64,000 nt of DNA from the NCBI RefSeq assembly GCF_027579695.1, contig NC_083577.1, forward strand, positions 39,561,198 to 39,625,197. Direction: 5' to 3'. Positions 37,098 through 46,000 of the stretch are shown here, in pieces (position 1 is the stretch's first letter; each line of letters opens with the position of its first letter). The DNA is from Neoarius graeffei (taxonomy: Eukaryota; Chordata; Actinopteri; Siluriformes; Ariidae). The notes under the pieces are model-generated. The model saw only the letters and a list, made by a program, of their open reading frames with translations, ran no database searches and was not told the DNA's origin. Made by a program: the position numbers and the translations under genes.

Positions 37098-40000
37098 GTG
37101 AGTTCACATCTGCAGTGTGGGATTCAGTTCAGGGCTTTCGGCACTTTTGTAAACAGGAACCACATTAGCTTTAACCCTTTGATGCAAAACATATGCGCAC
37201 CGGGACTCCCTAAAGTGAATGACGCATGAAATGGAATGACAAATGACAGGTAGTAAATTTGAACAATAAATGGTCCCTTGTCATTCAGATTCTTACAAAT
37301 GGAATAACGATTGAAATCTTTAGTTTTAGACCTCCCTAGGATAAGATAAGTGGATGCTTGGTGGGATATCAGCTTTTACAAATGGAATGACAGGGTTTCT
37401 ATATGTATTGACTTACTTTGAGCTAATGTTGTCAGTGATATCACCTTTTACAAATGGAATGATAAGGTTTCTAGGTGGAATGACATACTTTGAGGCAATG
37501 TTATCAGTGATATCAAATTAACAAATAGAATGACATTGTTTCTAGGTGGAATGACATACCTTTACCTTATATTATCAGTGATATCACCTTTTACAAACGG
37601 AATGACAGTGAATTTAGGTGGAATGACATACTTTTAGGTTATGTTATCAGTGATATCACCTTTTACAAATGGAATGACAGTGTTTCCAGGTGGAATGACA
37701 TACTTTAAGGTAATGTTATCAGTGATAACACCTTTAACAAATAGAATGACAGTGTTTCTAGGTGGAATGACATACCTTTACCTTATATTATCAGTGATAT
37801 CACCTTTTACAAACGGAATGACAGTGAATTTAGGTGGAATGACATACTTTTAGGTTATGTTATCAGTGATATCACCTTTTACAAATGGAATGACAGTGTT
37901 TCCAGGTGGAATGACATACTTTAAGGTAATGTTATCAGTGATAACACCTTTAACAAATAGAATGACAGTGTTTCTAGGTGGAATGACATACCTTTACCTT
38001 ATATTATCAGTGATATCACCTTTTACAAACGGAATGACAGTGAATTTAGGTGGAATGACATACTTTTAGGTTATCAGTGATATCACCTTTTACAAATTGA
38101 ATGACAGTGTTTTTAGGTGGAATGACATTTTGAAGCTAATGTTATCAGTGATATCACCTTTTACAAATTGAATGACAGTGTTTTTAGGTGGAATGACACA
38201 CTTTGAGCATATGTTATCAGGGATATCTCCATTTACAAATGGAATGACAGTGAATTTAGGTGGAATGACATACTTTTAGGTTATGTTATCAGTGATATCA
38301 CATTTTACAAATGGAATGACAGTGTTTCCAGGTGGAATGACATACTTTAAGGTAATGTTATCAGTGATAACACCTTTAACAAATAGAATGACAGTGTTTC
38401 TAGGTGGAATGACATACCTTTACCTTATATTATCAGTGATATCACCTTTTACAAACGGAATGACAGTGAATTTAGGTGGAATGACATACTTTTAGGTTAT
38501 GTTATCAGTGATATCACCTTTTACAAATGGAATGACAGTGTTTCCAGGTGGAATGACATACTTTAAGGTAATGTTATCAGTGATAACACCTTTAACAAAT
38601 AGAATGACAGTGTTTCTAGGTGGAATGACATACCTTTACCTTATATTATCAGTGATATCACCTTTTACAAACGGAATGACAGTGTTTCCAGGTGGAATGA
38701 CATACTTTAAGGTAATGTTATCAGTGATAACACCTTTAACAAATAGAATGACAGTGTTTCTATGTGGAATGACATACCTTTACCTTATATTATCAGTGAT
38801 ATCACCTTTTACAAATGGAATGACAGTGTTTTCAGGTGGAATGACATACTTTTAGGTTATGTTATCAGTGATATCACCTTTTACAAATTGAATGACAGTG
38901 TTTTTAGGTGGAATGACATTTTGAAGCTAATGTTATCAGTGATATCACCTTTTACAAATTGAATGACAGTGTTTTTAGGTGGAATGACACACTTTGAGCA
39001 TATGTTATCAGGGATATCTCCATTTACAAATGGAATGACAGTGAATTTAGGTGGAATAACATACTTTGAGCTAATGTTGTCAGTGATATCACCTTTAACA
39101 AACGGAATGACAGTGTTTTTAGGTGGAATGACATACTTTAAGCTGATGTTATCAGTGATATCACATTTAACAAATGGAATGGTAGTGTTTTAGGTGGAAT
39201 GACATACTTTGAGCTAACGTTATCAGTGATATTGCCTTCAACAAATGGAATGACAGTGTTTCTAGGTGGAATAACACCTTTAGGTTATGTTATCGGTGAC
39301 ATCACTTTTAGAAATGGAATGACAGTGTGTTTAGGTGGAATGACAAACTTTAAGCTAATGTTATCAGTGATATCACCTTTAACAAATGGAATGACAGTGT
39401 TTCTAGATGGAATGACATACTTTGGCAATGTTATCAGTGATATCACCTTCTACAAATGGAATGACATTGTTTCTAGGTGGAATGACATACTTTTAGGTTA
39501 TATTATCAGTGATATAACCTTTTACAAATGGAATGACAGTGTTTTTAGTAGAAATGACTGACTTTGAGGTTATGTTATCAGTGACATCACCTTTTACAAA
39601 TGGAATGACAGGGTTTCTAGGTGGTATTGATTTAAAGTTACAGGTTTTAGAATTCAGTTAAAGGTATAGGCCCTTTGATGTGGCCAGTTGTTTGACGTCA
39701 GTCTGTCTATAAACTGTTTCAAATTATAATCTTCTAAAAGCATGCATTAGCTGGTAATTCATTGATTTTCTTTATTGCAGTCTTACATAATTTCCTAGAA
39801 TTTCATTTTCAGAGCATATCTTGAACACTGTAAAGTCAAGGTCAACCAAACTTGTTACCATAATCAATCATTTCCTGCAAGGTTTTCCATTTTCTTGCAT
39901 AGAAACCAGTCTGAATGGCAGTTCTTTTTCAAAGAATTTTGGTTTCAGAGCAGATCTTAAAAACTTAAAGGACTACCTCTACCAAAACTTGCCATAGTGA

Positions 40001-43000: not shown

Positions 43001-46000
43001 AAAACATTGTCATTCCATTTGTAATAGGAGATGTCACTGATAACATTGCCTCAAAGTATGTCATTCCACCTAGAAACACTGTTATTCCATTTGTTTAAGG
43101 TGATATCACTGATAACATTGCCTCAAAGTATGTTATTTCACCTAAATTCACTGCCATTCCGTTTGTAAAAGGTGATATCACTGATAATATAAGGTAAAGG
43201 TATGTCATTCCACCTAGAAACACTGTCATTCTATTTGTTAAAGGTGTTATCACTGATAACATTAGCTTAAAGTATGTCATTCCACCTGGAAACACTGTCA
43301 TTCCATTTGTAAAAGGTGATATCACTGATAACATAACCTAAAAGTAGGTCATTCCACCTAAATTCACTGCCATTCCATTTGTAAAAGGTGATATCACTGA
43401 TAATATAAGGTAAAGGTATGTCATTCCACCTAGAAACACTGTCATTCTATTTGTTAAAGGTGTTATCACTGATAACATTAGCTTAAAGTATGTCATTCCA
43501 CCTGGAAACACTGTCATTCCATTTGTAAAAGGTGATATCACTGATAACATAACCTAAAAGTAGGTCATTCCACCTAAATTCACTGCCATTCCATTTGTAA
43601 AAGGTGATATCACTGATAATATAAGGTAAAGGTATGTCATTCCACCTAGAAACACTGTCATTCTATTTGTTAAAGGTGTTATCACTGATAACATTAGCTT
43701 AAAGTATGTCATTCCACCTGGAAACACTGTCATTCCATTTGTAAAAGGTGATATCACTGATAACATAACCTAAAAGTATGTCATTCCACCTAAAAACACT
43801 GTCATTCCATTTGTATAAGGTGATATCACTGATAACATTGCCTCAAAGTATGTCATTCCACCTAAAAACACTGTCATTCCATTTGTAAAAGGGGATATCA
43901 CTGATAACATTAGCTTAAAGTATGTCATTCCACCTGGAAACGCTGTCATTCCATTTGTAAAAGGTGATATCACTGATAACATAACCTAAAAGTATGTCAT
44001 TCCACTTAGAAACAATGTCATTCCATTTCATGAGCTGAAAGCATGTCATTCCACCTACATTTCAATCGTTATTCCATTTATAAGAATCTGAATGACAAGG
44101 GACCATTTATTGTTCAAATCACTAGCTGTCATTCGTCATTCCATTTCATGCGTCATTCACTTTAGGGAGTCCCTGCGCACCCCTTCTCATGCACAACATG
44201 GGTCAACAATGACCCGCATTCATTTTCCAGGTTATTTCATGCTGACTGAGTTTTTCTTTGCTCTATCTTTTGAAATCAATTTATTTTATGATTGAATATT
44301 CCAAGTGTTCTTTAAATATCTTGTTTTTAATTACCACAAATCATTAATTTAATTTTTTCTTTCCTACTTTATGAACAAAAATACTTTTTATATTACTACA
44401 CATGGGTCATCCAAGTGTGATTTAAAATTAAATGTCTTAATACTATAATAATAATTTGTTTCAAGTAATTACTTTAGCAGTGAATGGGGGCAGTTATTTA
44501 TTTATTAACTATGTAGTTAGCTAAGCCAACTACAATAAAATTAGCTAACTAAAGTAGAATACACTACCGTTCAAAAGTTTGGGGTCACCCAGACAATTTT
44601 GTGTTTTCCATGAAAAGTCACACTTTTATTTACCACCATAAGTTGTAAAATGAATAGAAAATATAGTCAAGACATTTTTCTGGCCATTTTGAGCATTTAA
44701 TCGACCCCACAAATGTGATGCTCCAGAAACTCAATCTGCTCAAAGGAAGGTCAGTTTTATAGCTTCTCTAAAGAGCTCAACTGTTTTCAGCTGTGCTAAC
44801 ATGATTGTACAAGGGTTTTCTAATCATCCATTAGCCTTCTGAGGCAATGAGCAAACACATTGTACCATTAGAACACTGGAGTGAGAGTTGCTGGAAATGG
44901 GCCTCTATACACCTATGGAGATATTGCACCAAAAACCAGACATTTGCAGCTAGAATAGTCATTTACCACATTAGCAATGTATAGAGTGGATTTCTGATTA
45001 GTTTAAAGTGATCTTCATTGAAAAGAACAGTGCTTTTCTTTCAAAAATAAGGACATTTCAAAGTGACCCCAAACTTTTGAACGGTAGTGTATGTCAACAG
45101 CTCGGTAGCTAATAGTAATTACTTGTAACTTTCTGACAAGTAATCGACTCACTCTCAAGGTAACCTAAACATAATCAATTTTTTTCTAAGGTAATGTTAG
45201 AACAATTGAAAAGCATTACTTCCATGTATTAGATGGGCAAAGGGCGCTGTGCTGAGCTGTGAAATGTCTGACACAAGCACAATTCACAGTTCCCACCAAA
45301 CGCTGGAGTAAATGCATGCGGGTCGTTTCTGACCCATGTGTGTAAACTTGATGTAGAATTACAAAAGCTGTGCTTGTTCATAACTTAAGAAAGGAAAAAT
45401 AAAAATGATGATTTGTGCTAAACAAAAACAAGATATAGATAGTTTTCACTGACGTCACGGCATTCCGGGGAATGCCCCCCAGCTGCCGTCTTGGAGGGCA
45501 AACAAAACGGACCATCGCCACTACCGGCTACGTTATCTCGGACGAATTTATGAAGTTATATAGTCAGTTTTCTAAAATAAAGATCAATGTCGGCAAAATC
45601 AAGCAAGCAGAAGTATATGGATACATTAGACGACATCTCACGACAACGGTATGCAGCCAAACTGGCCTTGATTGGGGGAATTGACCCCTACGAAGTGGAC
45701 AAAGATGCATTTTCAAGTGACTATGCAGGGCTGCCAAAGCCTGAAACTGCCAAAGCCTGCTCCAAAGCCTGAAACTGACTTCATCAAACTTTAAAGGCTG
45801 TCTGATATATACAACTTTATATATTCACAGGAAGTATAAGGATGAGAAAAAAAACAGTTTAAATCGGAAAGCTGCACACATTTGCGCAGTCCTGCACACC
45901 GCTCGGGCTGCACAAATGTGCTCAGCTTCCCGATTTAAACTGTTTTTTTCTCATCCTTATACTTCCTGTTTCATGGACTGTAACGGATTTGCTTATTTAG

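Follow-up and report, generated by a model that had tools for sequence, protein, structure and literature searches.

A foldback-type DNA element with kilobase arms of a 72-bp repeat in Neoarius graeffei and its relatives in the host genome

We analysed a stretch of 64,000 nucleotides from Neoarius graeffei (contig NC_083577.1, positions 39,561,198 to 39,625,197 of the forward strand), which is called the window in the following, and found that it contains a foldback element of 6,972 bp (window 37202-44173), in which two long arms made of a 72-bp tandem repeat face each other around a centre. We are confident that it is a large copy belonging to a family of inverted-repeat DNA elements, which has inserted at many places of the host genome with target-site duplications of 8 or 9 bp.

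Structure of the element in the window

The 20-base tip GGGACTCCCTAAAGTGAATG is present in one copy per strand, at 37202 and at 44154-44173 of the window, and the ends of the element are exactly identical over 39 bp in inverted orientation. The tip consists of a 9-bp palindrome (GGGA-C-TCCC), after which repeated AATGAC sites follow, and the left and right outer domains agree in 111 of 116 columns. The element is flanked by the 8-bp target-site duplication TGCGCACC, whose two copies show no mismatch. The window has 1,833 maximal exact inverted pairs of 16 bp or more that are spaced by no more than 10 kb (221 when those internal to the element are set aside), and the ends of the element are the only pair among them with an 8-bp flanking duplication; in a chance control such a duplication was seen at 101 of 2,000,000 random spans of 3-7 kb. 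Folding of the tip gave nothing notable (z -0.6).

Including the outer domains, the arms measure 2.4 kb (left) and 3.15 kb (right). The word GGAATGAC was counted 113 times in the window, 112 times inside the element and once outside, and its distribution is strand-pure, with 48 copies on the plus strand in the left arm, 64 on the minus strand in the right arm and none in the opposite orientation; the first box starts at base 32 of the element. In the centre, the longest stop-to-stop frame has 71 codons. An earlier sequence-only reading of this DNA had described exact inverted ends, a perfect 8-bp duplication, opposed 72-bp arms of 2.4 and 3.1 kb around a 1.4-kb centre, and a repeat word reaching to about 35 bases from the tips, and all of these descriptions were borne out.

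The idea that the 72-bp unit encodes a protein was rejected, as no relatives were found for an open reading frame (ORF) of the left arm. Neither the tip pattern nor the unit pattern had a match in a viral contig collection, and the unit pattern had none in a genome contig collection. The element is inserted in an older dispersed repeat which starts like TTAACCCTTTGATGCA (window 37169-37192 and 44181-44327); a related copy of this repeat lies 3 kb off at 47109-47449 on the minus strand; a clean empty site was not found. The features of the element are collected in Table 1.

Table 1. Features of the foldback element, in window coordinates.
Feature	Coordinates	Strand	Basis
Left copy of the target-site duplication TGCGCACC, 8 bp	37194..37201	+	sequence match
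Terminal 9-bp palindromic motif GGGA-C-TCCC, left	37202..37210	+	direct reading
Left outer domain, 116 bp; AATGAC at 17, 34 and 41 from the tip	37202..37317	+	alignment to right outer domain
Left arm array, period 72, 31.6 copies	37365..39624	+	Tandem Repeats Finder
Two adjoining identical 216-bp trimers (ABC), left arm	37580..38011	+	exact repeat search
Left-arm trimer copy with 4 differences	38222-38437		repeat search
Third exact left-arm ABC trimer	38438-38653		exact repeat search
Centre, about 1.4 kb, without long ORF	39625..41023	.	sequence comparison and ORF list
Right arm array, period 72, 41.4 copies, opposite orientation	41024..44028	-	Tandem Repeats Finder
Fourth right-arm trimer, 4 differences	42079-42294		repeat search
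Three adjoining 216-bp trimers, right arm, 4-5 differences from the left trimer	43180..43827	-	repeat search
Right outer domain	44059..44173	-	alignment
Terminal 9-bp palindromic motif, right	44165..44173	-	direct reading
Right copy of the target-site duplication TGCGCACC, 8 bp	44174..44181	+	sequence match

The family in the host genome

We searched the host genome (2.34 Gb in 38 contigs) and found 216 exact copies of the 20-base tip with G as first base (104+112) and 196 copies of the variant with A as first base (101+95); reversed controls gave none for either form. For pairing, 100 listed G places and 87 listed A places on contigs C1-C10 were entered, and each plus tip was joined to the next minus tip within 30 kb; 13 A places on C11-C12 were left out, since the listed G places end within C10. 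It turned out that the listed places form 72 facing tip pairs, most of which (64 of 72) have one G and one A end, with 6 pairs of G/G and 2 of A/A. The span is 600-800 bp in 47 of the 72 pairs, with a mode of 717 bp (exactly so in 13), and three pairs are longer than 6 kb, namely the window element (6,972 bp) and two others of 7,135 and 8,731 bp.

The copies read have the outer domain in common and carry oppositely oriented 72-bp repeat arms. Their two ends can be distinguished, one usually being 5'-GGGACTCCC and the other 5'-AGGACTCCC, and the window copy has GG at both. Duplications were counted in 16 complete copies, with L025, L026 and L028, which were read in part, standing outside this count. 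Eleven of the 16 show an exact duplication, of 8 bp in seven (the window copy, L024, L029, L032, L037, L039 and L040) and of 9 bp in four (L031, L033, L036 and L038), four show one mismatch (7 of 8 bases in L027, L030 and L041; 8 of 9, by eye, in L034), and one (L035) has no clean duplication. Since the duplications differ between copies, the copies represent separate insertions. Together with the long inverted tandem-repeat arms around a centre in the window copy, L032 and L034, these copies show the structure of foldback-type DNA elements. The sequence-only reading had taken the feature for a foldback transposon, a view that the absence of further copies with these tips would have refuted; such copies, with differing 8-9-bp duplications, do recur in the genome and support it.

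Two of these copies are comparable in size with the window element. L032 (8,731 bp) has an exact 8-bp duplication, GCAGTTTA, and, around a centre of 4.6 kb, arms built of the 72-bp unit that measure about 1.9 and 2.2 kb; the centre of the window copy is identical to part of this centre at 1357 of 1378 aligned bases. L034 (7,135 bp) is broken up by other repeats; window 39348-40515, made up of the innermost part of the left arm and some 0.9 kb of the adjoining centre, is present in it with 96.2% identity over 1,170 bp. The left end of the window copy aligns to the right end of L032 (329 of 336) and the right end to the left end of L032 (313 of 333), and because of these crosswise matches the two ends are regarded as distinct and kept, with the window copy lying in reverse orientation. 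The extra 3.2 kb of L032 was considered as a transposase gene and rejected: one ORF is a reverse-transcriptase remnant, and the other scanned ORFs had no family match. This remnant is a reverse-transcriptase zinc finger within the centre (zf-RVT, L032:4588-4782, E 2.4e-8). At L033 (C2:73845429-73860272), three minus tips are spaced 7,408 and 7,416 bp apart; one unit was read and holds a 907-bp family member with its exact 9-bp duplication, and because a second tip 7.4 kb away has an identical flank, the segment seems to be repeated in tandem.

A lone palindromic array in one assembly could also be an ordinary minisatellite or an assembly mis-join which resembles a transposon by chance. Against such a coincidence stand the perfect duplication, the two more large copies and the hundreds of tips, and a mis-join is further opposed by the arms themselves, which differ in length and in unit order and share no exact stretch longer than 166 bp, so that this explanation is extremely improbable. 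An assembly artefact is unlikely as well, because two other large copies with the same array type and shared centre sequence stand elsewhere. Several results nevertheless weigh against a mobile family. Among the 187 entered tips, 43 have no partner, and no family copy lay in any of 23 arbitrary 10-kb stretches (22 from C1, one from C2), so the family is sparse. When the flanks of the element were joined, no empty site was found within the window. Besides, no transposase of the family was found in the copies read, where the Pfam scan covered some ORFs of L032 and L035-L040 and one of the window centre, and movement in trans is for this reason something that we infer.

Turnover of the arms and recent movement

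Units of three types, A, B and C, form trimers of 216 bp in both arms. Exact repeats reach 382 bp (offset 642) and 322 bp (offset 216) within the left arm and 401 bp (offset 216) within the right arm, and the two at offset 216 confirm the higher-order period of 216 bp proposed earlier. Because of such long exact repeats, recent exchange within arms is supported by the sequence. The longest exact stretch common to both arms is 166 bp, and in the unit tree those of the left and right arms are intermingled (17 label changes against a shuffled mean of 16.5, in a weakly resolved tree of 51 rows and few columns); because of both observations sharing between arms is indicated, and passage of sequence from one arm to the other seems somewhat more probable than its absence. 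The sequence-only reading had proposed recent exchange within and between arms, of which the first part is supported by the long repeats and the second is somewhat more probable than not.

The unit counts bear on the same question. The left arm has 5 units of type B and 5 of type C among its 30, the right arm 5 and 4 among its 40, while the arms of L032 have 0 and 1 among 19 units and 0 and 0 among 23 (L032 units of odd length were dropped from the type counts). Type A was counted 6 times in each arm of the window copy and 2 and 0 times in those of L032. These patterns are read most simply as amplification in the window copy together with passage between its arms. Two considerations speak against it. 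The trimers may possibly descend from shared ancestry, followed by loss in L032. Moreover, the order of units in the two arms is not collinear beyond the effect of the trimers alone: the collinearity lies above that of single-unit shuffles (0 of 100 reach it), but it is matched by 12 of 60 shuffles of three-unit blocks and by 13 of 39 rotations.

The arrays would grow and shrink through unequal exchange or replication slippage inside one arm, and conversion, which the foldback geometry would favour, would move sequence between the arms; these processes would have given the 216-bp trimers in both arms of the window copy. The common 717-bp form would go back to a longer one that lost internal sequence, and would have multiplied afterwards.

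The right arm of the window copy, counted from tip base 2, shows no difference from L038 over 355 bp, and it is identical to L030, L036 and L037 over 230-231 bp. L036 and the 718-bp copy L030 share 99.1% identity over 669 bp. Because of the 355-bp identity between the window copy and L038, the alignments indicate that the family has been mobile recently.

The 12-mer AAATGGAATGAC is found in the tip domain as well as in the units, with 44 copies in the window, all of them in the element. In average, conservation is 0.966 in the two GGAATGAC boxes versus 0.900 elsewhere, a difference that is not significant, since 7% of the possible placements for such a pair of 8-base blocks score equally well; conservation is likewise seen in the palindromic GATATCAC/TTATCAGT part. 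It is plausible, as the sequence-only reading had suggested, that a putative transposase-binding site has been multiplied. Short copies are far commoner than long ones, the reverse of what would be expected if more repeats meant more movement, though size alone could explain it.

Candidate transposases and known foldback elements

Nine listed pairs span 1.7-2.6 kb, of which seven were read whole (L035-L041) and two in part (L025 and L026). A full-length relative with the same tips and a transposase of its own, which the earlier reading had suggested looking for, was not found among the copies read, and the Pfam scan of ORFs in six of the 1.7-2.6 kb copies (L035-L040) did not reveal an autonomous partner. 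L036 alone among these six gave a transposase, which is nested and Tc1-like, and L037 holds a nested element with CACTGTAAAAA ends. A close relative of the transposase in L036 lies in the window as an open Tc1-like frame of 358 codons (33689-34765, minus strand). The family would be moved in trans by cut and paste, and the DDE-type transposase responsible, encoded elsewhere, would recognise the palindromic terminal motif and the nearby AATGAC-type sites.

Three kinds of transposase were weighed as the driver, and what is said of published systems here and below refers to the available parts of the cited papers. A Merlin transposase (IS1016/IS1595-like) is a tentative candidate, in which case the family would be a non-autonomous Merlin foldback. 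Merlin elements make 8-9-bp duplications, as the family copies do, have ends that start with GG, occur in zebrafish and are reported with internal tandem repeats in some families (PMC8101967), and the host has 50 matches to PF12762 (DDE_Tnp_IS1595), many of them without internal stop. However, 5'-GG at both ends is found in 6 of the 72 listed pairs, 64 having AG at one end, and among the 28 of 50 Merlin matches that were compared, those on C1-C10, the nearest is 200 kb away from any listed exact tip (for one of them, C10:91795711, the listed G tips end too early). The Merlin place L042 (2.5 kb), which may not hold a whole element, shows two 12-bp inverted pairs and no duplication. Giant arrayed arms are not described for Merlin in the available text of PMC8101967. 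Seven Merlin-type transposase matches, all without internal stop, are located on C1 at about 84.9-92.7 Mb, and others are on C18, C20 and C24.

A transposase of Mutator-like elements (MULEs) is an equally tentative candidate, and would make the family a vertebrate MULE foldback. Duplications within the 8-11 bp of MULEs and long terminal inverted repeats (TIRs) are both present, and the 9-bp palindrome of the tip with its repeated AATGAC sites agrees with such a driver. Muta1 and other MULEs of Aedes aegypti are alike in having 8-9-bp duplications, a palindromic terminal motif (10 bp and imperfect in Muta1) and subterminal tandem repeats, and Muta1 is called a type 2 foldback; it differs in its 145-bp TIR with 12-bp repeats, in encoding its transposase and in its insect host (PMC5225508). 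Tm1, a Mutator/Foldback element of root-knot nematodes with a MULE-like transposase, has foldback ends with composite TIRs, a variable number of tandem repeats and asymmetric outermost bases, whereas its repeat is about 14 bp long, its duplications are mostly 9 bp and a transposase-encoding member is known (PMC3169594). On the other side, the vertebrate MuDR entries of Repbase were judged probably misidentified, according to the available part of PMC6446971. If true, the MULE foldback reading would be direct evidence of MULE activity in a vertebrate, where it is doubted. We regard as rather unlikely the fuller scenario of a Mutator-like foldback family that has moved very recently in a vertebrate, with its arms serving as a reservoir: in them, tip-adjacent sites would have been multiplied into kilobase arrays recombining inside and across the arms, and from them short hairpin copies would be shed and multiply. 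A P-type (THAP9/Galileo-like) transposase is improbable. P elements of zebrafish make 8-bp duplications (PMC10983969), and the TIRs of Galileo, which are long and repeated, contain extra THAP-binding sites (PMC3688188); binding of the THAP domain to sites in the repeats was shown. Yet Pdre2 ends in CATACCTGTCAAC (PMC10983969), unlike the GGGACTCCC of the family, and the duplications of Galileo are 7 bp (PMC3573991).

By comparison of descriptions, the structure is that of a foldback element like Tetris and Galileo, with longer arms. Tetris of Drosophila virilis is similarly non-coding, with an outer domain and tandem repeats in both TIRs around a centre, 8-9-bp duplications in complete copies, no known driver and a short relative, DAIBAM, with common ends; unlike the window copy, with its 72-bp units and its arms measuring 2.4 and 3.15 kb, it has a repeat of about 220 bp and TIRs of up to 1,735 bp (PMC4079207). 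Galileo, of the P superfamily in Drosophila, shares long TIRs and, in some subfamilies, internal tandem repeats (PMC3688188, PMC3573991), but its TIRs reach about 1.26 kb and its transposase is known (PMC3573991). Foldback elements of Drosophila (FB) and of sea urchin are named in PMC4079207 as well. In the parts of the papers compared, known foldbacks come from insects, nematodes, plants and sea urchin, and the repeated arms are shorter where lengths are given.

In the literature on foldback or long-TIR elements of fish (titles and abstract openings), no name for the family was found, a database-only name being possible, and no paper was found with the letters of the tip. Because long arrayed copies and many near-identical 717-bp copies occur in one genome, comparison of copies could address how foldback arms grow and whether repeated sites aid or hinder movement.

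As for the surroundings, a sperm-tail (NYD-SP28) domain at window 50500-50853 and a region at 60078-60548 that matches PDB chains of dynein regulatory complex protein 1 are probably exons of one DRC1-like gene. The foldback element is located upstream of these exons, and is either intronic or outside the gene. A repeat of about 380 bp is very dense: the window has it at 36300-36680 and at no fewer than a dozen further places, and 14 of the 23 arbitrary 10-kb genome stretches match it strongly. Besides, nested inverted repeats starting CTTAAAGGAACAGTCCACC at window 26859-27598, with exact arms of up to 117 bp, form another short inverted-repeat element.

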